A DNA stretch of 64,000 nt from Sneathiella chinensis (GTDB taxonomy: Bacteria; Pseudomonadota; Alphaproteobacteria; Sneathiellales; Sneathiellaceae), in the NCBI RefSeq assembly GCF_012720115.1, contig NZ_VNWN01000002.1, positions 124,001 through 188,000 of the forward strand, in the 5' to 3' direction. Shown piece by piece: positions 10,131 through 61,576 of this stretch. The notes beneath the pieces were generated by a model. That model did not search any database. It had not been told where the DNA came from and saw only the letters and a program-made list of their open reading frames with translations. Made by a program: the position numbers and the translations under genes. Numbering within the stretch: the first letter of the stretch is position 1; every line of letters starts with the position of its first letter.

Positions 10131-10558
10131 CGCCCAATTGCAACATTTCCCGCACATCATCAGTGTATTAAAATTTCAATATATTTTAATCATCCTTAGG
10201 ATTTCCGGGCTTTGCCCCCACATATAGTAGGTCAATATTTTGTTTGATCTATTTATTAAATAATTTTCATAAATCCTATTCAGCCTCTATTGCATGATGA
10301 AATAAGTTGGGATTAAATGCTGCGCTGTTGGGAGCATAAACACACATTGACAGCGCGTGATTTGCAGTCGGGGGAATGCAGGTTGCCTTGGTTTTTGGCA
10401 GGAAGCCGTTTTTCCGGTGCCGTTCGCCAGACCAAAGTTTCGGCTGTCATCTCAGATTTTTGAGTTCTGACAAACTTACTGCTTTTGCAGTGAGAGGGTT
10501 TCTTTATTATTGCTGCGTCCTGAAGTATGACGTCGATTTTTGAGGAAGGCACAGATCA
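10131..10558. other. AT-rich non-coding gap before the rhodanese-dnaA unit
   Basis: 428 bases with no supported gene; the left half (10140-10310) is markedly AT-rich. The visible structure is an inverted repeat at about 10475-10494 (CTTACTGC-TTTT-GCAGTGAG, one G-U pair) and a short one at 10452-10470 (TCAGA/TCTGA). TTGACA occurs at 10347 but has no good -10 at the right distance. No TTATCCACA-type DnaA box is seen, so it is more likely the regulatory region for rhodanese-dnaA than an origin. Confidence 0.5.
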
Positions 10559-38194: not shown

Positions 38195-39618
38195 CAGCGT
38201 CCCTCCCGGTTGTGTTTTTTCCACTGTTCCATGAAGGTTTTCCCCTCTGGTGCTGGCAGATCCCGCACCGAGGTCCAGCCCTTGGCGAAGGGCAGGGACC
38301 GGATGCGCCCCTTGTCCCCGGCAATCATCGACAGGACCCGCGCCGCCAACCGGGTGGTCTGGCGATACAGCCACGGTCGCTTGGCAAAAAAGCCCCACCA
38401 TTCAATGGCCCAGCGATCCGGCTGCGGCCCGATCTGCTGTTCAAACGTCTTTTCCCGCCAGTATCGCAGGATTTTCGGCAAGGGAATGCGAACCGGGCAA
38501 ACCTCTTCACAGCGGCCGCAAAAGCTGGACGCGTTGGGCAAATGCCGCGCTTCTTCAATCCCCACCATCTGCGGGTTAAGCGCCGCCCCGATCGGCCCCG
38601 GATAAACCCAGCCATAACTGTGGCCGCCCACGGCGTGATAGACCGGGCAATGGTTCATACAGGCCCCGCAGCGGATACAGCGCAGCAGCTCCTGCAGCTC
38701 GGTTCCCAGCATTTCCGTGCGCCCGCCATCCAGCAGGACCACATGGAAATTCTCCGGCCCGTCGATATCGTCTTTCCGCTTCGGGCCTGTGGAAAAGGTG
38801 GTGTAGACGGACATTTCCTGCCCGGTGGCAGAGCGGGCCAGAACCCGCATCAGGGTGCTGGCATCCTCAAGGGTGGGGACAATTTTCTCCAGACTGGCCA
38901 CAACGATATGGGTCTTGGGCAGGGACTGGGTCAGGTCGCCATTGCCCTCGTTGGTGACAATCACCGTTGATCCCGTTTCCGCAATCAGGAAATTGGCCCC
39001 GGTTATCCCCACATCGGCGGTGACATATTTGTGGCGCAGCACCGTGCGCGCCTCTCCCACCAGCTTTTCCGGGTCTTCTTCCCGGTCCTGATAGCCATAT
39101 TGCTGGTGATGTTCGTGAAACAGGTCAGTAACCTGTTCCCGGGTCTTGTGCACGGCAGGGCCGATAATATGGCTGGGCGGCTCGTCCGCCAGTTGGATGA
39201 TATATTCGCCAAGATCGGTCTCGATGGGTTCAATCCCCTCGGAGGCGAGAAACTTGTTCAGGGCGATTTCCTCGGTGATCATGGATTTGCCCTTGGTCAC
39301 CGTCCGGGCATTGGCATCACGGCAGATTTTCAAAACCGCCTGCCGGGCTTCCTCGGCAGTGGAGCACCAGTGAACATGGCCCCCTTCGGCAACGACCTTC
39401 TGCTCGAAATATTCCAGATAGTAATCCAGATTATCCAGCACATGATCCTTGATCTCAGCCGCCTGATCCCGAAGGCTTTCGAACTCCGGCAACTCCGCCG
39501 CCGCATCGGCGCGGGCCGTGGTGAACGCCGTCCTGATCCGGTTCATCGCCGCCCGAAGATCCTCGTCCGCCATGGCCTCATGGGCGCTTTCCTTGAATTT
39601 CCGGCTTGTTACCTGCAT
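38194..39618 (-). CDS. lutB: LutB, iron-sulfur and LUD-domain lactate oxidase subunit
   Basis: 474 residues. The N-terminal LUD region includes TKGKSMITEEIALNKFL, DEPPSHIIGPAVHKTR and ETGSTVIVTNEGNGDL. Two 4Fe-4S-type clusters follow: CIRCGACMNHCP and CGRCEEVCPVRIPLP, each C-x2-C-x2/3-C-x3-C-like with a distal Cys-Pro. It is likely the electron-transfer core of the LutABC lactate dehydrogenase on the cytoplasmic side. The ATG shares one base with the lutA stop (TGATG), so the three lut genes are tightly coupled. Confidence 0.95.
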   Translation of the reverse strand: MQVTSRKFKESAHEAMADEDLRAAMNRIRTAFTTARADAAAELPEFESLRDQAAEIKDHVLDNLDYYLEYFEQKVVAEGGHVHWCSTAEEARQAVLKICRDANARTVTKGKSMITEEIALNKFLASEGIEPIETDLGEYIIQLADEPPSHIIGPAVHKTREQVTDLFHEHHQQYGYQDREEDPEKLVGEARTVLRHKYVTADVGITGANFLIAETGSTVIVTNEGNGDLTQSLPKTHIVVASLEKIVPTLEDASTLMRVLARSATGQEMSVYTTFSTGPKRKDDIDGPENFHVVLLDGGRTEMLGTELQELLRCIRCGACMNHCPVYHAVGGHSYGWVYPGPIGAALNPQMVGIEEARHLPNASSFCGRCEEVCPVRIPLPKILRYWREKTFEQQIGPQPDRWAIEWWGFFAKRPWLYRQTTRLAARVLSMIAGDKGRIRSLPFAKGWTSVRDLPAPEGKTFMEQWKKHNREGR

Positions 39619-43806: not shown

Positions 43807-44475
43807 TTACTGCTTCCAGATCGGGTCCTTGATGGTTTCCAGAAAAGCCGTGTGGGCGGCCAGTTCGTCGTCCGTTGGTGCATGAACGCGGGGCGGACGG
43901 GCCCGGCTTTTTGCCGATGTCACCCGGCGCCCCTCGGCCTCTTCAGACAGGGAAAAGCCGCGCTGACGGCCGCCGCGCAGTTCCAGATAAACCTCGGCCA
44001 GCAATTCGGCGTCCAGAAGCGCGCCGTGCTTGGTCCGGGCAGAGTTGTCGATCTTGAACCGGCGACACAGGGCATCCAGGTTTGCCTGCGCGCCCGGGAA
44101 CATTTTCCGCGCCATGGCCACCGTATCAATGGCCCGGTCCATGGGAAGCGGCATCCGTTTGTGACGGATCAGTTCCGCATTGATGAATTTCATATCAAAT
44201 TCGGCGTTGTGGATAACCAGTTTGGCATCGCCGATAAAATCAAGAAACGCATCGATTTCCTGCGCCATTACCTTGTGTTTCTTCAGAAACTCCTCGGACA
44301 GGCCATGCACCTTGAAAGCCTCGGCAGGCATGTCCCGCTCCGGGTTGATATAGCGATGGAAAACCCGGCCCGTGGCCATGTAGTTATCCAGCTCCACACA
44401 GCCGATTTCCACAATCCGGTCCCCGGTGCTCGGATCAAATCCGGTGGTTTCCGTATCAAGGGCAATCTCACGCAT
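43807..44475 (-). CDS. dnaQ: DNA polymerase III epsilon subunit (3'-5' proofreading exonuclease)
   Basis: 222 residues. The DEDDh exonuclease motifs are intact: Exo I LDTETTGFD (D7, E9), Exo II VIHNAEFDMKF, and Exo III KHGALLDAELLAEVYLEL with the catalytic His before the Asp. The C-terminal tail beyond the exonuclease would contact the polymerase alpha subunit. The start overlaps the coaE stop by eight bases. It is the last gene of the minus-strand series ppsR-maf-aroE-coaE-dnaQ leading away from the predicted origin. Confidence 0.97.
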   Translation of the reverse strand: MREIALDTETTGFDPSTGDRIVEIGCVELDNYMATGRVFHRYINPERDMPAEAFKVHGLSEEFLKKHKVMAQEIDAFLDFIGDAKLVIHNAEFDMKFINAELIRHKRMPLPMDRAIDTVAMARKMFPGAQANLDALCRRFKIDNSARTKHGALLDAELLAEVYLELRGGRQRGFSLSEEAEGRRVTSAKSRARPPRVHAPTDDELAAHTAFLETIKDPIWKQ

Positions 44476-47363: not shown

Positions 47364-47384
47364 GATTTTTTCTGTCCACCCTAG

Positions 47385-47745
47385 TGCTGTGGATTACGGG
47401 GATAACAGGGATAACACGGCTTTATTGGCCAACTCAAAATTTTTCTCCCCGTTTACGTCTGATTCCTCCCGCCTGTTCTCAAGCCGTGAATAACTCGGAA
47501 CAGAAGATGTGGATTATGGGGAAAAGGACAATTTCAGGTGCATTTTAAAAAGTTATCCCCATAATCCCCATAATTCAACGTCAGGGGCCAAGGGGATTTT
47601 CACAGCATTATCCAAATTTAATTGAAAAACTGGATTTTATCCCCGGATTTCCTGTAAAGAGTGTGCATGAAAACTGATCCCCGTTATCCACAGGGATAAA
47701 CAACAACTACTACCTATTTTTAAATATATTATTTGTAGGGATAAC
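47385..47745. other. oriC: Predicted chromosomal replication origin (oriC)
   Basis: The 400-base gap between ppsR and hemE has no gene. It holds one perfect DnaA box, TTATCCACA (47684-47692), and several one-mismatch boxes: TGTGGATTA at 47388-47396 and 47508-47516, TTATCCCCA at 47553-47561 and TTATCCAAA at 47608-47616. There are further GGGATAAC repeats around 47399-47415 and 47738. An AT-rich tract at about 47700-47735 next to the perfect box could be the unwinding element. One GANTC site is at 47461-47465. Gene context matches hemE-oriC-RP001 of Caulobacter and Rickettsia. The exact limits are inferred. Confidence 0.83.
47684..47692 (+). promoter_or_regulatory. Perfect DnaA box
   Basis: TTATCCACA, identical to the strong DnaA consensus, inside an imperfect palindrome TTATCC-ACA-GGGATAA (47684-47699). 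It is the closest box to the AT-rich tract before hemE. Confidence 0.85.
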
Positions 47746-47763
47746 TTTCAGGAAGGTTATGTC

Positions 47764-48807
47764 GTGTCTAAAGTCCTTTCCAAACGTATGTTACAGGCTG
47801 TAAACGGTGAAAAAACAGACCGTCCGCCGTTCTGGCTAATGCGTCAGGCTGGACGCTACCTCCCGGAATACCGCGCTACACGGGCAGAAGCCGGCTCCTT
47901 TCTCGACCTTTGCTATTCCCCGAAACTGGCGGAAGAAGTGACATTGCAGCCGCTACGCCGCTATGACATGGATGCGGCGATCCTGTTTGCGGACATCCTC
48001 CTCATCCCGGATGCGCTTGGACAGCCCCTTGCATACAAGGAGGGAGAAGGCCCGGTTCTGGACCCGATCCGATCCGAAAGTGACCTGAAAAGTCTGTCGC
48101 TGGACAATCTGCACACCCGACTGGCGCCGGTTTACGAGACCGTTGACCGCCTGTCCGGGTCCATCCCGGACCACTGTACCCTGATCGGCTTTGCCGGTGC
48201 GCCGTGGACCGTGGCCACCTACATGGTCGAGGGGCGGGGATCGAAGGATTACGTCAATATCAAGAAATGGATGTACAGCGATCCGGCCGGCTTTTCCAAA
48301 CTGATTGATATCCTTGTTGAAACCACGGTTGAATATCTGACCAAACAGGTTGAGGCCGGCGCTGAAATCATTCAGATATTCGATACATGGGCAGGCGTTC
48401 TGCCCGACAATGAATTCAACACATGGGTGATCCAGCCAACAAAACGCATCGTAGACAGTCTCCGTCAGCGTTTTCCGGGACTTCCCATTATCGGCTTTCC
48501 AAAAGGGGTCGGCGGAAATCTTGATGCCTTTGTGAAGGGAACAGGGGTTTCCGCGGTCAGTCTGGATACGGGCGTTTCCCTTGACTGGGCAGCCGCTACC
48601 ATTCAGCCGCAGGTGACCGTTCAGGGCAATCTGGACCCCATCCTGCTTGTTACCGGGGGACAGGCCATGGTGGACCGGATCCATCACATTCACCAGACTC
48701 TGAAAAACGGACCGTTTATTTTCAATCTGGGTCATGGCATCATCCCGCAAACGCCGCCGGAAAATGTGGCCCTTCTGGCAGAAACCGTCAAAGGGCTGAA
48801 AAACTAG
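47764..48807 (+). CDS. hemE: Uroporphyrinogen decarboxylase
   Basis: Converts uroporphyrinogen III to coproporphyrinogen III in heme synthesis. 347 residues: [17 protein letters not shown] near the N-terminus, [32 protein letters not shown] and [10 protein letters not shown], and the C-terminal [15 protein letters not shown]. The start is GTG 47764, ten bases after AGGAAGG; a nearby ATG is out of frame. Its promoter must lie in or beside the predicted oriC, as in Caulobacter. It is the first gene of hemE-hemH-hemJ. Confidence 0.98.
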
Positions 48808-51907: not shown

Positions 51908-52882
51908 TTACAGCGTGAAGATGCTGGAGCCCGTGGTTTTCCGGCCTTCCAGATCCTGATGGGCCTTCACCGCCTCGGACAGGTGATAGCGTTGCTGGAT
52001 ATTGATTTTCAGCACGCCCTGTTCCACCAGTGTGATCAGATCCTGCGCGGATTGTTCAAGGTCGGCCCGCTTGCTGTTATATTCCATCAGGGTCGGACGG
52101 GTGACATAAAGCGACCCCTTGGCCGCGAGGATGCCCAGATTGACCCCCTCAACCGGCCCTGAGGAGTTTCCATAGGACACCATAAGCCCCCGCGGCGACA
52201 GGCAGTCCAGGGACTGTTCAAACGTTTCCTTGCCGATGCTGTCATAAACCACGGGAACACCCTTGCCGTTCGTAATTTCGCGAACGCGGTCCACAAAATT
52301 TTCGGTGCGATAGTTGATGGTATGGTCACAGCCGTTCTGGCGGGCCAGTTCGGCCTTTTCCTCGGACCCGACGGTGCCGATGATGGTGGCGCCGATATGC
52401 TTCGCCCACTGACAGGCCAGCAGGCCAACCCCGCCCGCCGCCGCATGGAACAGGATGGTATCCCCGGCCTTGACCTTGAAGGTCCGTTGCAGAAGATATT
52501 CTGCGGTCATGCCCTGCAACATCATGGCAGCGGCGGTTTCGTCATCAATGCTGTCCGGCAGTTTGATCAGGATATCGGCCGGCATGACCCGCGCCTCGGC
52601 ATAGGCGCCGATGGGGCGGCCCGCATAGGCAACCCGGTCGCCAACGGACAATCCGCTTACGCCGTCGCCCAGTTCCTCGATAACGCCCGCCGCTTCCATG
52701 CCGATAGAGGTGGGGAAGGTGGACGGGTAAAGGCCGGTTCTGAAATAGACATCGATAAAGTTGAGGCCAACGGCATTATGCCGGACCCGAACCTCCCCGG
52801 GGCCCGGTTTGCCAACCTCCACATCTTGCCATTTCATGACTTCCGGTCCGCCCGGCTCCTGAAGAACGATTGCTTTTGTCAT
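51908..52882 (-). CDS. Zinc-independent quinone oxidoreductase (QorA-like, MDR family)
   Basis: 324 residues, full length for NADPH:quinone oxidoreductases of the medium-chain dehydrogenase/reductase superfamily. The N-terminal GroES-like part has VRVRHNAVGLNFIDVYFRTGLYP and SIGMEAAGVIEELG. The nucleotide fold has LFHAAAGGVGLLACQWAK. The zinc ligands of alcohol dehydrogenases are absent, as expected for QOR. It reduces quinones or related carbonyls, perhaps in electrophile stress. It stands alone with a 63-base gap to ogt, within which a 17-bp tandem duplication lies. Confidence 0.92.
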   Translation of the reverse strand: MTKAIVLQEPGGPEVMKWQDVEVGKPGPGEVRVRHNAVGLNFIDVYFRTGLYPSTFPTSIGMEAAGVIEELGDGVSGLSVGDRVAYAGRPIGAYAEARVMPADILIKLPDSIDDETAAAMMLQGMTAEYLLQRTFKVKAGDTILFHAAAGGVGLLACQWAKHIGATIIGTVGSEEKAELARQNGCDHTINYRTENFVDRVREITNGKGVPVVYDSIGKETFEQSLDCLSPRGLMVSYGNSSGPVEGVNLGILAAKGSLYVTRPTLMEYNSKRADLEQSAQDLITLVEQGVLKINIQQRYHLSEAVKAHQDLEGRKTTGSSIFTL

Positions 52883-52903
52883 TTACTGATCCTTTTTTTA
52901 TGC

Positions 52904-52937
52904 GCCCGCAGAAGTGAAAAGCCCGCAGAAGTGAAAA
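52904..52937 (+). repeat. 17-bp perfect tandem duplication
   Basis: GCCCGCAGAAGTGAAAA occurs twice in direct succession (52904-52920 and 52921-52937) between ogt and the quinone oxidoreductase gene, 21 bases from the qor start. It looks like a recent slippage event. Confidence 0.9.
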
Positions 52938-52945
52938 GAGAGTGT

Positions 52946-53425
52946 TTAGATATCCAGTTCCTGCTGTTGCGAGGGCAGGGCATTTTCCAGCCGCAGCAGG
53001 GCTTTCTTGGTGTCCAGTCCGCCGTCCCCGGAATAGCCGCCAAGGTCTTTTCCAGCCGCCAGAACCCGGTGACAGGGAATGATGATCGGGATCGGGTTCA
53101 GGCCGCAGGCATTGCCTACGGCCTGGGCGGAACTGTCCAGATCCCTGGCGATGTCCCCATAGGACCGCGTCTGACCGCCGGGAATGGCGTTCATGGCGGC
53201 ACAGACCTGTTTCTGGAAATCCGAACCCGGCGGATTGAGGGGAAGGTCGAAATCCAGTCTTTCCCCGTCGAAATAGTCATTCAGTTGCTGGATTGCCTGT
53301 TCCAGAAGCGGTGTTTTTTCCTGCCATTCAGAAGGAACCCATCCCCAGTCAAGGGAAACGATCGCCCCGTCTTCCTCGGTAAGGGTCAGATCGCCAACCG
53401 GGCTGTGCATACAAAGCTGGGGCAT
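52946..53425 (-). CDS. ogt: Methylated-DNA-protein-cysteine S-methyltransferase
   Basis: Direct repair of O6-alkylguanine by suicide transfer to a cysteine. 159 residues with the acceptor site IPCHRVL (C118), the DNA-binding HTH region TRSYGDIARDL and AVGNACGLNPI. This is the small Ogt form, without an Ada regulatory domain. The start abuts the stop of the upstream YyaL-like gene with no gap, implying cotranscription. Confidence 0.94.
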   Translation of the reverse strand: MPQLCMHSPVGDLTLTEEDGAIVSLDWGWVPSEWQEKTPLLEQAIQQLNDYFDGERLDFDLPLNPPGSDFQKQVCAAMNAIPGGQTRSYGDIARDLDSSAQAVGNACGLNPIPIIIPCHRVLAAGKDLGGYSGDGGLDTKKALLRLENALPSQQQELDI

Positions 53426-55450
53426 TCAGGATTTCTCCTCAAGAAGGCTGCGAAGATCGTGGGAATTGTTGGCCGGATTGGAACAGACAGGCCCCTTGCA
53501 AATATAGGCGGTGGCCTTGTCGTCTTTGCGGGTCTTGCCTTTTGCCGGATGATCAAAGGGCAGGTCGTCCGTTGCTTCCAGAATATTGACGATACGGGCC
53601 GGCAGGCTGAAATCATTGAGGGCGGCCAGAAGGTCCAGCGTTTCCGGCTCGTCCCGGCGACCGACAATAATGACCTGCGTTGCCTCGATCAGGGTTTCAA
53701 AATTGTTCAGGAAGGTGGCCAGCGGGAAGAAATTGCGCCCCAGCTCCGCCGAGAAGGTTCGAACAATGTCTGTTGCCTTTTCAAACGGCTCCCGCTCTCC
53801 GGTCAGGTAATGCAGCTTGGCCAGCACCTCAATCAGGGTGCCGTTGCCCGCAGGTACCGCGTTGTCAAAGGCGTTTCTGGTGCGGACAATCAGGGCCTCC
53901 GCATCATCAGCAGTGAGGAAATACCCGCCTTCGTCCGCCCAGAAATGGGTGTTCAGGATGGTGATCCAGTCCTGTACCCGCTGAAGATAGAAATTCTTGC
54001 CTGTGGCCTCGAACAGGACCAGACCGGCCCGCGCCATATTGGCGTAATCGTCCAGCATTCCGGTGTGCCGGGCCTGACCCTGACGGTAGCTGTGATACAG
54101 GCGGCCCTCGTCGGTCATGGACAGGGAGGTAATGGCCGTAAAGGCGCCTTCGGCTTTTTCAATCCAATCCGGTTCGCTGAAATACATGCCCGCCTTGGCG
54201 AGGGAGGCAATCATCAATCCGTTCCAGTCCGTGAGAACCTTGTCGTCCAGTCCGGGCCGGACCCGTTTTTCCCGTTCGGCAAAGAGCAGGCCAGACAGAT
54301 GGGCCAGCCGTTCCTCGGTTTCCGGGTCCAGCATGTTGGGGTAGGCGAGGCGGTGCAGGATGTTCACATCTTCCCAGTTGCCATCTTCCCGAACGCCATA
54401 GATTTCCGAATACTGGTGGCCTTCATCGCCCAGAATGTCGTTCACCTGCTGTTGGGTCCAGGTATAGAACTTGCCCTCGACCCCTTCGCTGTCTGCGTCC
54501 AGTGTGGCGGCAAAGGCCCCGGTGTCGGTGGTCATCTCGCGCAGCAGCCAGCCAATCGTCTGGTAAATACGGGCTTGCAGAAGGTCACTTTTGTTTTCTG
54601 CATGAACCAGCAGCATCAGGTCGAGGATCTGGGCGTTGTCATACAGCATTTTCTCGAAATGCGGGACCATCCACGCCGCATCGGTGGAATAGCGTGCATA
54701 ACCGCCCCCAAGATGGTCATAAATGCCCCCCTGCGACATGGCGATCAGGGCTTTTGTCACCACTTCGGCCAGTTGTTCGTTGCCGGTCCGGATATAGCTG
54801 CGCCAGATATTTTCCAGAACATAGGTCTGCGGGAATTTGGGCGCCGATCCGATGCCACCAAATTCCGGGTCCGCCTCCTGGGCGTAGCGGTCGGCAATCC
54901 GGTCCAGCACTTCAAGGGTCAGTTTCGGGCGATCCCCCTCAGGGGTGCTGTTCATTTTCTTCAGGGCCGCTTTCAGGGCATCCCGGTTCTTGGAAACCTT
55001 TTCGGGCTCATTCTTGAAAATGCCGGAAACGGCGGTCAGCACATCGGTAAAACCGGGACGACCATAGCCGGACTGTTTCGGGAAATAGGTGCCGCCCCAG
55101 AACGGCTCCCCCTTGGAATTCAGAAACATGGTCAGCGGCCATCCGCCCTGTTCCCCCAGAAGGGAGAGGGAGGTCTGGTAAATCTGGTCGATGTCGGGGC
55201 GCTCTTCCCGGTCCACCTTGATATTGATGAACAGGTCATTCATCAGGGCCGCTACCTCGTCATCCTCGAAACTTTCATGGGCCATGACGTGGCACCAGTG
55301 ACAGGCGGCATATCCCACACTCAACAGGATCGGTTTGCCTTCGCGTTTTGCAAGGTCCAGTGTTTCCTGGCTCCACGGTTGCCAGTGGACGGGGTTGTCC
55401 TTGTGCTGAAGCAGGTATGGACTTGTTTCCTTGTGCAGGACATTTTTCAT
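53426..55450 (-). CDS. YyaL-like thioredoxin-domain protein (DUF255)
   Basis: 674 residues. The N-terminal thioredoxin-fold DUF255 starts [21 protein letters not shown] and has the redox motif CHWC (C50, C53). It is followed by an (alpha/alpha)6 glycosidase-like region, e.g. [16 protein letters not shown] and [17 protein letters not shown]. The family is found from bacteria to mammals (SPATA20) and its reaction is not established. No signal peptide. Its stop touches the ogt start, so the pair forms a short operon. Confidence 0.92.
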
Positions 55451-55561
55451 GGTAACCCCGTAAAGCCAATCGTTTAACGTGCATTTCGTTGATCGAAAGC
55501 GTTATTTCACATACCCTTCTACAGGAAGATCATCCCCCGTTTCAATGAGGAGACCCCGGCA

Positions 55562-57202: not shown

Positions 57203-57218
57203 TGTTTCACGTGAAACA
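57203..57218. other. parS: parS centromere site 1
   Basis: TGTTTCACGTGAAACA, a perfect 16-bp palindrome identical to the bacterial parS consensus bound by ParB, in the 117-base gap between mnmE and mnmG. It is 9.5 kb from the predicted oriC and 2.6 kb before parA. Confidence 0.95.
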
Positions 57219-59159: not shown

Positions 59160-59768
59160 ATGAATAAATCAGAGTTTCAGTCCAGAACCAATGTTTCACG
59201 TGAAACATTGGAGAAGCTGGAAATTTACGTCAATCTTCTGAATAAGTGGCAGAAGGCCATTAATCTGGTCAGTCGGTCCACATTGTCCGACGCATGGCTG
59301 CGGCATATTCTCGACAGCTATCAGGTTCTGGATCATGTGACAGCGAAAGAAGGGATATGGATTGATCTTGGCAGCGGGGCCGGTTTTCCGGCACTGGTGG
59401 TTGCCATTGTCAGTGATTTCGACGTTCATGTGGTCGAAAGTGATCAGAGAAAATGCCTTTTCATGCGCGAGGTTTCACGTGAAACATCGTCGCCGATCAC
59501 CGTTCACAATAGCCGAATTGAGGCTGTAAGCCCGTTTCCTGCTGATGTTATTTCAGCCCGCGCTTTGGCGTCACTGGATCGCCTGCTGGAATATTCCGTG
59601 CCCTTCGCGACAGAAAAAACCGAATTCCTGTTTTTGAAAGGACAGGATGTGGATGCGGAATTGACCAATGCGTCGAAATGTTGGAAGATGGATGCCATCA
59701 AATACCAAAGCGTTTCAAGCAGCGAAGGCAGCATTCTGAAACTGACGAATGTGCGTCATTCGGGGTAG
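59160..59768 (+). CDS. rsmG: 16S rRNA (guanine-527-N7) methyltransferase RsmG (GidB)
   Basis: 202 residues from ATG 59160; the longer frame from 59112 would overlap mnmG. The family motifs NLLNKWQKAINLVSRST and WLRHILDSYQVL precede the SAM motif DLGSGAGFPALVVAI. The coding sequence includes two parS sites, which both encode the peptide VSRET (residues 12-16 and again near 105-109). Its stop is 11 bases before parA. Confidence 0.97.
   Translation: MNKSEFQSRTNVSRETLEKLEIYVNLLNKWQKAINLVSRSTLSDAWLRHILDSYQVLDHVTAKEGIWIDLGSGAGFPALVVAIVSDFDVHVVESDQRKCLFMREVSRETSSPITVHNSRIEAVSPFPADVISARALASLDRLLEYSVPFATEKTEFLFLKGQDVDAELTNASKCWKMDAIKYQSVSSSEGSILKLTNVRHSG
59192..59207. other. parS: parS centromere site 2 (inside rsmG)
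   Basis: TGTTTCACGTGAAACA, identical to site 1. The palindrome extends four bases further on each side, making 24 bp from 59188 to 59211. It lies in codons 11-16 of rsmG (reading NVSRET), 572 bases before the parA start. Confidence 0.96.
59471..59486. other. parS: parS centromere site 3 (inside rsmG)
   Basis: GGTTTCACGTGAAACA, matching the parS consensus at 15 of 16 positions (outermost base differs). It lies in the rsmG coding region (reading EVSRET), about 280 bases after site 2 and 294 bases before parA. Confidence 0.9.
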
Positions 59769-59779
59769 GGGGCAAGGTC

Positions 59780-60583
59780 ATGGAAAAAATTGACGTTATT
59801 GGTGAATCTCGAATTCTTGCGATCGCAAACCAGAAGGGCGGCGTTGGGAAAACCACCACCGCCATCAATCTGGCAACGGCGCTGGCTGCTGTGGGGCAAA
59901 CGGTTCTGGTGATCGATATCGATCCCCAGGGCAACGCCAGCACGGGCCTTGGTGTTGAACGGGACGAACGCCAGAATAATGTTTACGATGTTTTGATGGG
60001 CGATAAACCCCTTCAGGAAGCCACCTTCAAAAGTGCCATTCCGGGGTTGGATATCGTTCCTTCCACCCCTGATCTGACCGGGGCGGAACTGGAATTGATC
60101 GAAATGGATCGTCGCAGTCATCGTCTTTATGATGCGCTGAAGACGGTTCAGGATAAATACGATTACGTTCTTATCGACTGTCCACCGTCCCTGAACCTGC
60201 TGACCTTGAACGCATTGGTTGCGGTTCAGGCGGTTATTGTTCCCCTGCAATGTGAATTTTTCGCCCTTGAAGGGCTCAGCCTGCTGATCAAGACCATTGA
60301 ACGGGTGAAAAACACCCTGAATCCGCGTCTTGAAATTCAGGGCGTTGTCCTGACCATGTTCGACAAAAGAAACAACCTGTCGGATCAGGTGGCGCAGGAT
60401 GTCCGCAATTACCTTGGGAAAAAGGTTTATGAAACGGTCATTCCAAGGAATGTGAAGGTTTCGGAAGCCCCAAGTCACGGAAAACCGGCCTTGTTATATG
60501 ATCATCGGTGCGCCGGCAGTCAGGCTTATATCAAGCTGGCGGGCGAGGTGATCCGCCGTGAAAAACAGCTGAGTGCAGCGTAA
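59780..60583 (+). CDS. parA: Chromosome-partitioning ATPase ParA (Soj)
   Basis: 267 residues from ATG 59780, preceded by GGCAAGG; the in-frame extension to 59678 overlaps rsmG. The deviant Walker A motif KGGVGKTTT is at 19-27, with VLVIDIDPQGNASTGLG and YDYVLIDCPPSLNLL. ParA forms a dynamic gradient on the nucleoid that moves ParB-parS complexes to the cell poles. parB follows 45 bases later. Confidence 0.98.
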   Translation: MEKIDVIGESRILAIANQKGGVGKTTTAINLATALAAVGQTVLVIDIDPQGNASTGLGVERDERQNNVYDVLMGDKPLQEATFKSAIPGLDIVPSTPDLTGAELELIEMDRRSHRLYDALKTVQDKYDYVLIDCPPSLNLLTLNALVAVQAVIVPLQCEFFALEGLSLLIKTIERVKNTLNPRLEIQGVVLTMFDKRNNLSDQVAQDVRNYLGKKVYETVIPRNVKVSEAPSHGKPALLYDHRCAGSQAYIKLAGEVIRREKQLSAA

Positions 60584-60628: not shown

Positions 60629-61576
60629 ATGTCGGACGAAGCAGGAAAAAGGAAACTGGGACGCGGATTGTCCGCCCTTTTGGGGGATGATGTCTCGGCG
60701 GATTATTCCGAACTGGATAAAATTCGGGCCTCCAAGGAGGTCCCGGTGGATCAATTGGAACCCAGCCCGTTTCAGCCTCGGCAGGATTGGGATCAGGAAG
60801 CCCTGGAAAGTCTGGCCAGTTCCATCGCCGAAAAAGGCATTCTTCAGCCCATTCTGGTACGGCGCAATCCTGATGATCGGGATATGTACCAGATCATTGC
60901 CGGTGAACGTCGCTGGCGGGCGGCCCAGATTGCCCAGCTTCATCAGGTCCCGGTTATTATCAAGGAACTGTCCGATGTGGACAGCCTTGAAATTGCGATC
61001 ATTGAAAATATCCAGCGGGAAGACCTGTCCGCCATTGAAGAGGCGGAAGGCTATCGCCGTCTGGCCGATGAATATAATTACACGCAGGAAACGCTGGCCA
61101 AGCAGCTTGGGAAAAGTCGCTCTCATGTGACAAATACCATGCGCCTTCTCAACCTGCCCAAGTCCGTCCAGTCCATGATCCGGTCCGGGGATTTGAGTCC
61201 GGGGGCAGCCCGAACCCTGATTACCGCCGATGATCCGGAAAAACTGGCCAAGAAAATCGTCAATGAGGGCCTTTCTGTGCGTGCAGCAGAGAAATTGGCT
61301 TATAAAAAACCGGCTCATAGAGCGAGCTCAGCGTCCCGGAGTACGAAAGATCAGGATACGCTCGCTCTAGAAGGGGATTTATCAGCGGCAATTGGGCTGA
61401 AAGTTGGCATAAATCACAAGGGAGACAGTGGCGGAAGCATCACGATTTCCTATGATCATCTGGATCAACTGGATGATATTTGCCGTCGCTTGACCCGTCA
61501 TTCCCTGATAACCGGGGGCGATGAAGATCCCTTTGAAGGGGATATTGCGGCCGCACTGGACGAAGATTTCCGATAG
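60629..61576 (+). CDS. parB: Chromosome-partitioning protein ParB (Spo0J)
   Basis: 315 residues. The N-terminal ParA-stimulating tail KRKLGRGLSALLGDD leads to the CTP-binding/clamp motif GERRWRAAQ (92-100) and ENIQREDLSAIEEAEGYRRL. The HTH (YTQETLAKQLGKSRSHVTNT) recognises parS, and the C-terminal dimer domain ends the protein. The three parS sites upstream are its expected binding sites. Confidence 0.98.
   Translation: MSDEAGKRKLGRGLSALLGDDVSADYSELDKIRASKEVPVDQLEPSPFQPRQDWDQEALESLASSIAEKGILQPILVRRNPDDRDMYQIIAGERRWRAAQIAQLHQVPVIIKELSDVDSLEIAIIENIQREDLSAIEEAEGYRRLADEYNYTQETLAKQLGKSRSHVTNTMRLLNLPKSVQSMIRSGDLSPGAARTLITADDPEKLAKKIVNEGLSVRAAEKLAYKKPAHRASSASRSTKDQDTLALEGDLSAAIGLKVGINHKGDSGGSITISYDHLDQLDDICRRLTRHSLITGGDEDPFEGDIAAALDEDFR

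Follow-up and report, generated by a model that had tools for sequence, protein, structure and literature searches.

According to the available text of PMC1914354, the chromosome origin of Caulobacter crescentus, which was mapped experimentally, lies between hemE and a gene of the COG1806 family. For the opening of the strands the described system is the BUS of Bacillus subtilis, in which tandem DnaA boxes and a short spacer are followed by a period-3 array of DnaA-trios on one strand and then by AT-rich DNA, the constant base of each trinucleotide being a middle adenine (PMC8287927 and PMC10721633, in the parts available). That adenine is contacted by N187 of B. subtilis DnaA, and a guanine by R202 and E228; none of the pocket residues is universally conserved, cytosine can substitute for the middle adenine, and homologues possibly recognise other sequences (PMC10721633, same parts). 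In the available text of PMC8287927 the authors themselves suspected the existence of 'deviant DnaA-trio motifs' that lack the middle A.

The DNA considered here, which we call the window, is the whole stretch of 64,000 nucleotides that was analysed (C12:124001-188000), part of a draft genome of 3.55 Mb (3,547,739 bases) in 19 contigs; the ten closest relatives of its hemE are 72-80% identical and are named Sneathiella, Sneathiellales or unclassified Alphaproteobacteria. Our essential contention is that the gap between ppsR and hemE is, with high probability, the chromosomal oriC of this Sneathiella-like alphaproteobacterium, and that it belongs to the known hemE/COG1806 type of origin, because it combines a DnaA-box cluster, a turn in GC skew, nearby parS sites and conservation of the gap with the absence of a skew turn at dnaA. 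The original prediction, which had placed the chromosome origin here, is backed by these features and by conserved synteny, and its appeal to Caulobacter is borne out by the mapped origin lying in the same gene interval (PMC1914354, available text). The likeness to Caulobacter Cori and other hemE/COG1806 origins extends, on the same source, to a gap of about 400 bp, several DnaA boxes and an AT-rich tract; what adds interest is an array with a constant first base. A search for Sneathiella together with origin of replication found no paper in the literature that it covered, and our assignment would place the origin of a Sneathiella-type lineage.

The structure of the locus is as predicted, in that exactly 400 bp free of genes separate two divergent gene starts, and the flanking genes are directed away from it: dnaQ, coaE, aroE, maf and ppsR are read leftward, and hemE, hemH, hemJ and rho rightward. 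Its GC content of 0.403, compared with 0.51-0.61 in sampled stretches, means that it is richer in AT than the genome. The arrangement is widely shared, since ppsR is found divergently upstream of hemE in 77 of 80 hemE loci, the three misses being a locus with only 244 bp of upstream sequence (L032) and one locus each from Luminiphilus and a member of the Halieaceae, both presumably gammaproteobacteria. Within the genus, a complete gap of 393-421 bp with common box blocks is present in 23 of 24 genomes (G012 was left out since its contig ends too soon), and all counts of conservation given below refer to these 23 gaps. An RNA element was also considered as a reading of the gap, and was set aside when an Rfam search of 46-50 kb matched no family. 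Some distance to the right, an open frame of 1051 aa (52322-55477, + strand) has no Pfam match; on the opposite strand a 674-aa DUF255/thioredoxin-like gene (53426-55450) overlaps it, and the frame is probably not a gene.

Cumulative GC skew, which had been proposed as a check, was computed over C12:1-228000 less a 4-kb hole, and was sampled for the replicon as a whole. It has its minimum at window position 48,500, on a plateau of 46.0-49.5 kb. On C12, skew is negative in each of the eight stretches left of window position 47,500 and positive in each of the 19 right of it. The skew continues to fall through dnaA (10-12 kb), which had been named as the other place where a minimum might occur, and turns at the gap. 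Two genomes of the same genus, G011 and G022, are single contigs (3.94 and 4.07 Mb), and in the first 80 kb of each the minimum lies near the gap: at 38,250 in G011, 1.7 kb from the 5' end of ppsR (36,562), and at 44,000 in G022, 8 kb from it (35,949). Skew samples from both are positive from 40 kb to 1.95 Mb and negative from 2.2 Mb, with the sole exception of G011 at 60 kb (-0.006); in G022 the 20 kb at the contig start, which lie to the left of the putative origin, have a skew of +0.001. In addition, three putative parS sites are located 9-12 kb from the gap, and the only other match in the genome with at most two mismatches is at C12:1109360.

The gap contains one perfect DnaA box (TTATCCACA, 47684) and four with one mismatch, at 47388(-), 47508(-), 47553(+) and 47608(+), in agreement with the number claimed, and the several repeats of GGGATAAC that had been noted amount to four exact copies when both strands are counted. 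The window as a whole contains 24 boxes that deviate at no more than one base, where 8.9 would be expected, and none of 100 shuffles reached that number. When compared with 862,587 bases of its own genome (the window and 40 other stretches, 24% of the total), the gap is the densest cluster by every count: per 400 bp it holds five boxes with no more than one mismatch (next best 2), 12 with no more than two (next best 7), eight TTATCC cores (next best 3) and four copies of GGGATAAC (next best 1). Perfect boxes alone prove nothing, because there are 18 in the genome against 17 for the reversed pattern, and so no enrichment. The features are collected in Table 1.

Table 1. Features of the ppsR-hemE gap and its surroundings, in window coordinates; fractions are genus gaps
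Feature	Position	Strand	Remarks
dnaA	10818..12410	+	35 kb from putative origin; TIGR00362, E 5.6e-176
ppsR (COG1806), left flank, 275 aa	46536..47363	-	NCBIfam NF003742, E 2.4e-106
Putative oriC, whole gene-free gap ppsR/hemE	47364..47763	.	box cluster, skew turn, gap kept within genus
Left array, three abutting 9-base DnaA-box-like sites TAATCCACA, TTATCCCCG, TTATCCCTG	47388..47414	-	
Box-like site TTATTCACG	47485..47493	-	genus majority TTATCCACA; at most two mismatches 21/23, at most one only 4/23
Box-like pair TAATCCACA + TTTTCCCCA	47508..47525	-	second at most two from TTATCCCCA in 15/23
Central abutting pair TTATCCCCA, TAATCCCCA	47553..47570	+	at most one from TTATCCCCA: first 23/23, second 6/23
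One-mismatch box TTATCCAAA	47608..47616	+	at most one mismatch in only 2/23
Box-like site TTATCCCCG inside conserved block ACTGGATTTTATCCCC	47637..47645	+	to TTATCCACA: at most one 19/23, at most two 23/23
Abutting pair TGATCCCCG + perfect box TTATCCACA, proposed DnaA anchor	47675..47692	+	
Period-3 array, DnaA-trio-like, top strand CAACAACTACTACCT	47701..47715	-	read on bottom strand
AT-rich tract, proposed unwinding site	47716..47735	.	least stable 36 bp of gap start at 47714
Inverted box-like site TTATCCCTA, between AT tract and hemE	47736..47744	-	at most two from TTATCCCCA in 22/23
hemE, right flank, 347 aa, GTG start	47764..48807	+	TIGR01464, E 1.2e-122
parS site 1 (putative)	57203..57218	.	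exact match to consensus
parS site 2 (putative)	59192..59207	.	exact match to consensus
parS site 3 (putative)	59471..59486	.	one mismatch
parA-like ATPase gene	59678..60583	+	ParA/MinD-type families, none above cut-off; named from context
parB	60629..61576	+	TIGR00180 above cut-off

Conservation within the genus falls into blocks, which are the left three-box array, the central TTATCCCC, ACTGGATTTTATCCCC, the ATCCCC before the last box, ACAACAACTACTACCT, the AT tract and a GGGATAA ahead of hemE. The most conserved 20 bp of the gap (47397-47416) belong to the left array, whose first and second sites are within two mismatches of TTATCCACA in 21 and 22 of the gaps respectively, and whose third is within two of TTATCCCCA in all 23. 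ATCCCC (47677-47682) and CAC (47689-47691) are invariant. The box at 47684 has at most one mismatch in 12 of the gaps, perfect TTATCCACA is missing from 11 of the gaps, and the box at 47508 is poorly kept, with at most one mismatch in a single genome. These observations partly support the idea of a lineage-specific set of weak boxes: variant boxes are indeed kept, given the 11 gaps without perfect TTATCCACA, the constant nearness of 47553 to TTATCCCCA and the TTATCCCT-type sites at 47406 and 47736. Exact patterns understate the conserved block, since a pattern search for the box-array block matched 16 of 60 genomes and left 11 of the 24 same-genus genomes (own included) unmatched; in G013 a match with three mismatches lies about 1.8 kb from the start of ppsR, outside the gap. 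In its own genome the block of box and array is unique at up to three mismatches.

The AT-rich tract, originally given as 47700-47735, is real: of all 50-bp segments in the window, the one starting at 47695 ranks second in instability. It is ordinary on the scale of the genome, as 19 of 40 sampled stretches contain 50 bp less stable than it; we therefore discarded AT-richness as evidence of an origin in its own right. The most unstable 50 bp in the window lie within 10156-10280, some 0.5 kb before the dnaA open reading frame, and no box cluster accompanies them.

Between the last box pair and the AT-rich tract lies the period-3 array, and this succession has the order and polarity of the BUS. 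It differs from the BUS in that the constant base is the first (G on the bottom strand) and not the middle adenine (PMC8287927 and PMC10721633, in the parts available). The first base of each trinucleotide is kept in 22-23 of the 23 genus gaps and the middle base is variable; mean information at the three positions is 1.95, 1.22 and 1.82 bits, so that first and third bases are conserved, and conservation of the phase has a permutation p of 0.022 (phylogeny ignored). We re-implemented the published trio rule from the text of the paper, as a DnaA box, a spacer of at most 16 bp and at least three 3'-NAN-5' trios. The + strand of the window fails this rule and passes only with a spacer of 21. Among the genus gaps it is passed by 18 of 23 on the + strand and nine of 23 on the - strand, mostly away from the conserved array, and among 77 hemE loci by 55 and 28 respectively (shuffles 347/1540); the rule is loose, because 102 of 460 shuffles of the genus gaps pass it too. 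It was brought in, together with the run test below, as a replacement for our first trio score, a badly calibrated measure that gave p = 0.711 for the window and values below 0.05 for 15 of 78 gaps on the + strand and three of 78 on the - strand, and that is little informative because in AT-rich DNA a positive score is to be expected anyway.

The run test asks for at least five C at lag 3 within the last 170 bp before hemE. It was designed after inspection of the first gaps, so that only a later set of 73 gaps is new to it, the measure having been fixed before those sequences were fetched and scored. In the first set a C run is present in all 23 genus gaps (shuffles 3.2%), in 21 of 28 gaps of Rhodospirillales type (shuffles 19%), which are not independent because about a dozen come from Azospirillum or near it, and in 15 of 25 of Hellea type (shuffles 3.5%), and it is found in none of 14 gaps of Parvularcula/Hyphomonas/Henriciella type (shuffles 4.6%). 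For the new set, ppsR was found in 89 of 142 genomes of the class, leaving 86 loci after removal of our own, one of the same genus and one ppsR cut by a contig start, and then 73 gaps once 13 loci without hemE adjoining ppsR in the stretch were dropped; none of the 73 is similar by BLAST to the first gaps or to another of its own set. C runs occur in 41 of them compared with seven on the other strand (shuffles 14.4%), some of the GC-rich matches among the 41 probably being due to chance. Expressed as excess over a gap's own shuffles, C at lag 3 reaches +2.90 in the genus, +1.31 in 67 other loci and +1.43 in the new set. The corresponding values are -0.41, +0.10 and +0.41 for T at lag 3, which is what a constant middle A would produce, -0.45, +0.02 and -0.11 for C at lag 2, and -0.65, +0.53 and +0.21 for C at lag 4; some runs of A or T at lags 2 and 4 likewise exceed shuffles, by up to +1.07. 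The middle base of the new runs, on the top strand, is A in 82 cases, C in 77, T in 65 and G in 24. As a positive control we took sequence beside dnaA in other Proteobacteria, where the signal was weak: runs of at least five behind a box were seen in two of 27 loci (five of the 27 having no upstream sequence). A separate observation is that the Henriciella/Hyphomonas-type gaps without a C run (L040-L051) have TTAATAATGATA in common, about 30-60 bp upstream of hemE, which is perhaps an opening element of their own or part of a CtrA site.

The DnaA protein itself offers a possible reason for a different code. At the positions of B. subtilis N187, I190, I193, R202 and E228, the DnaA encoded in the window has Y, I, L, K and E, which is to say that it has Tyr271 in place of Asn187 and K286 in place of R202 and retains the glutamate as E312. 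Its match to B. subtilis DnaA extends through GGRDHTTV of domain IV, from which ordinary recognition of boxes would be expected. Tyrosine occupies position 187 in all 17 readable loci of Sneathiella/Rhodospirillales type, and serine or alanine in all eight of Hellea/Algimonas type, which also have C runs; one genome with the tyrosine (L034) has a perfect CTA array, the position varies among other Proteobacteria, and both control runs beside dnaA combine a middle T with asparagine at 187. A tie between this residue and the freedom of the middle base is not proven. We propose, at a likelihood falling just short of even, that in many alphaproteobacterial origins the DnaA filament reads the first G of the trinucleotide through the retained Glu and Lys while accepting T, A or G at the middle position, Asn187 having become tyrosine in the Sneathiella/Rhodospirillales group. 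For the present array it is plausible, if not proven, that the trio code resides in the first G, given the residues of the window DnaA and the suspicions voiced in PMC8287927 and PMC10721633 (parts available). If so, searches that require a middle A would overlook the opening element in these origins or put it in the wrong place, and the array would be a concrete, testable example of the deviant trios suspected in the available text of PMC8287927. Among the matches listed in our literature search, which had subscription papers outside its scope, there was no paper on alphaproteobacterial trios, and PMC8287927, in the text available, surveyed Proteobacteria.

By analogy with work on DnaA in B. 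subtilis and Caulobacter, initiation at this locus could proceed as follows. DnaA would bind the box arrays, in several of which the 9-mers directly adjoin one another and most of which are of TTATCCCC/TTATCCCT type; its anchor would be the conserved pair beside the array. From there a filament of ATP-DnaA may spread onto the bottom strand of the period-3 array, a step to which we give an even chance, and so open the adjoining AT-rich tract. Helicase would then be loaded and two forks set out, one through ppsR towards dnaQ and the other through hemE, rho and parAB.

Other readings of these observations have to be weighed, and two of them deny the gap its role as origin. Were replication to begin in the dnaA region (10-17 kb), the ppsR-hemE gap would be a mere DnaA-regulated promoter region, an idea invited by the grouping of dnaA, dnaN, recF and gyrB at 10.8-17.6 kb, by the position of the window's least stable DNA upstream of dnaA, and by the fact that the contigs of both complete relatives (G011:C1 and G022:C1) begin with dnaA, which is some 36 kb from the gap. 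The skew, however, makes no turn there and turns at the gap in our own contig and in both relatives, and between 9 and 15 kb there is a single box with at most one mismatch (11755); skew and box counts together led us to reject an origin at dnaA, which we hold to be very improbable. Records from the genus that start at dnaA would consequently begin some 36 kb away from the origin. The conserved blocks could also be explained as nothing but the divergent promoters of ppsR and hemE, the gap being shared by two divergent genes and containing two sigma-70-like matches. Yet such matches are at chance level (2 against 1.0 in shuffles, and for terminators 1 against 0.8), the conserved blocks are box arrays, and promoters leave the skew turn unexplained, so that this explanation was rejected as well and seems to us very improbable, although the roles of promoter and origin may exist side by side.

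A third reading accepts the gap as oriC and concerns the array alone, which would act as a spacer, bind some other protein or belong to the promoter of hemE, the strands being opened by the boxes and the AT tract without any trio-type element. The failure of the window under the published rule unless the spacer is widened speaks for this, as do the tendency of the rule to be passed elsewhere in the genus gaps, the lack of C runs in the Parvularcula/Hyphomonas/Henriciella group and, for what a badly calibrated measure is worth, the first trio score. Against it, the array is kept in every genus gap, in a strand-specific manner and between box pair and AT tract, and C runs recur on the expected strand of the new gaps. 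We would put an origin lacking such an element at somewhat below an even chance.

With oriC in the gap as our preferred reading, its differences from other origins of the same type can be considered. CtrA sites are described for many hemE/COG1806 origins and are absent from some. In the window gap, unlike in Caulobacter-type origins, neither an IHF consensus nor a CtrA site is found, even when one mismatch is allowed for the latter. Exact CtrA sites are found in none of the 23 genus gaps, compared with eight of 12 of Henriciella/Hyphomonas type and eight of 25 of Hellea type, and matches with one mismatch are below chance in the genus (0.09 per gap against 0.64 in shuffles). The IHF consensus is absent from all 23 genus gaps and present in just two of 65 others. 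GANTC, the CcrM methylation site, is also scarce, with 0.52 per genus gap against 1.41 in shuffles, and over the 862,587 bases sampled from the window's own genome it is about four times rarer than expected (761 against 3,207). This avoidance, taken with matches to the GcrA family and an open reading frame with a RAMA domain at C12:972104, which we assume from its domain layout to be CcrM-like, suggests that the genome has an active CcrM system. The Sneathiella gap lacks the crowding of GANTC seen in the 28 gaps of Rhodospirillales type (L011-L037, L045 and L053, many of them from Azospirillum), where 170 sites are present against 47 expected, and where the flanking genes are depleted in the same motif (365 against 573).
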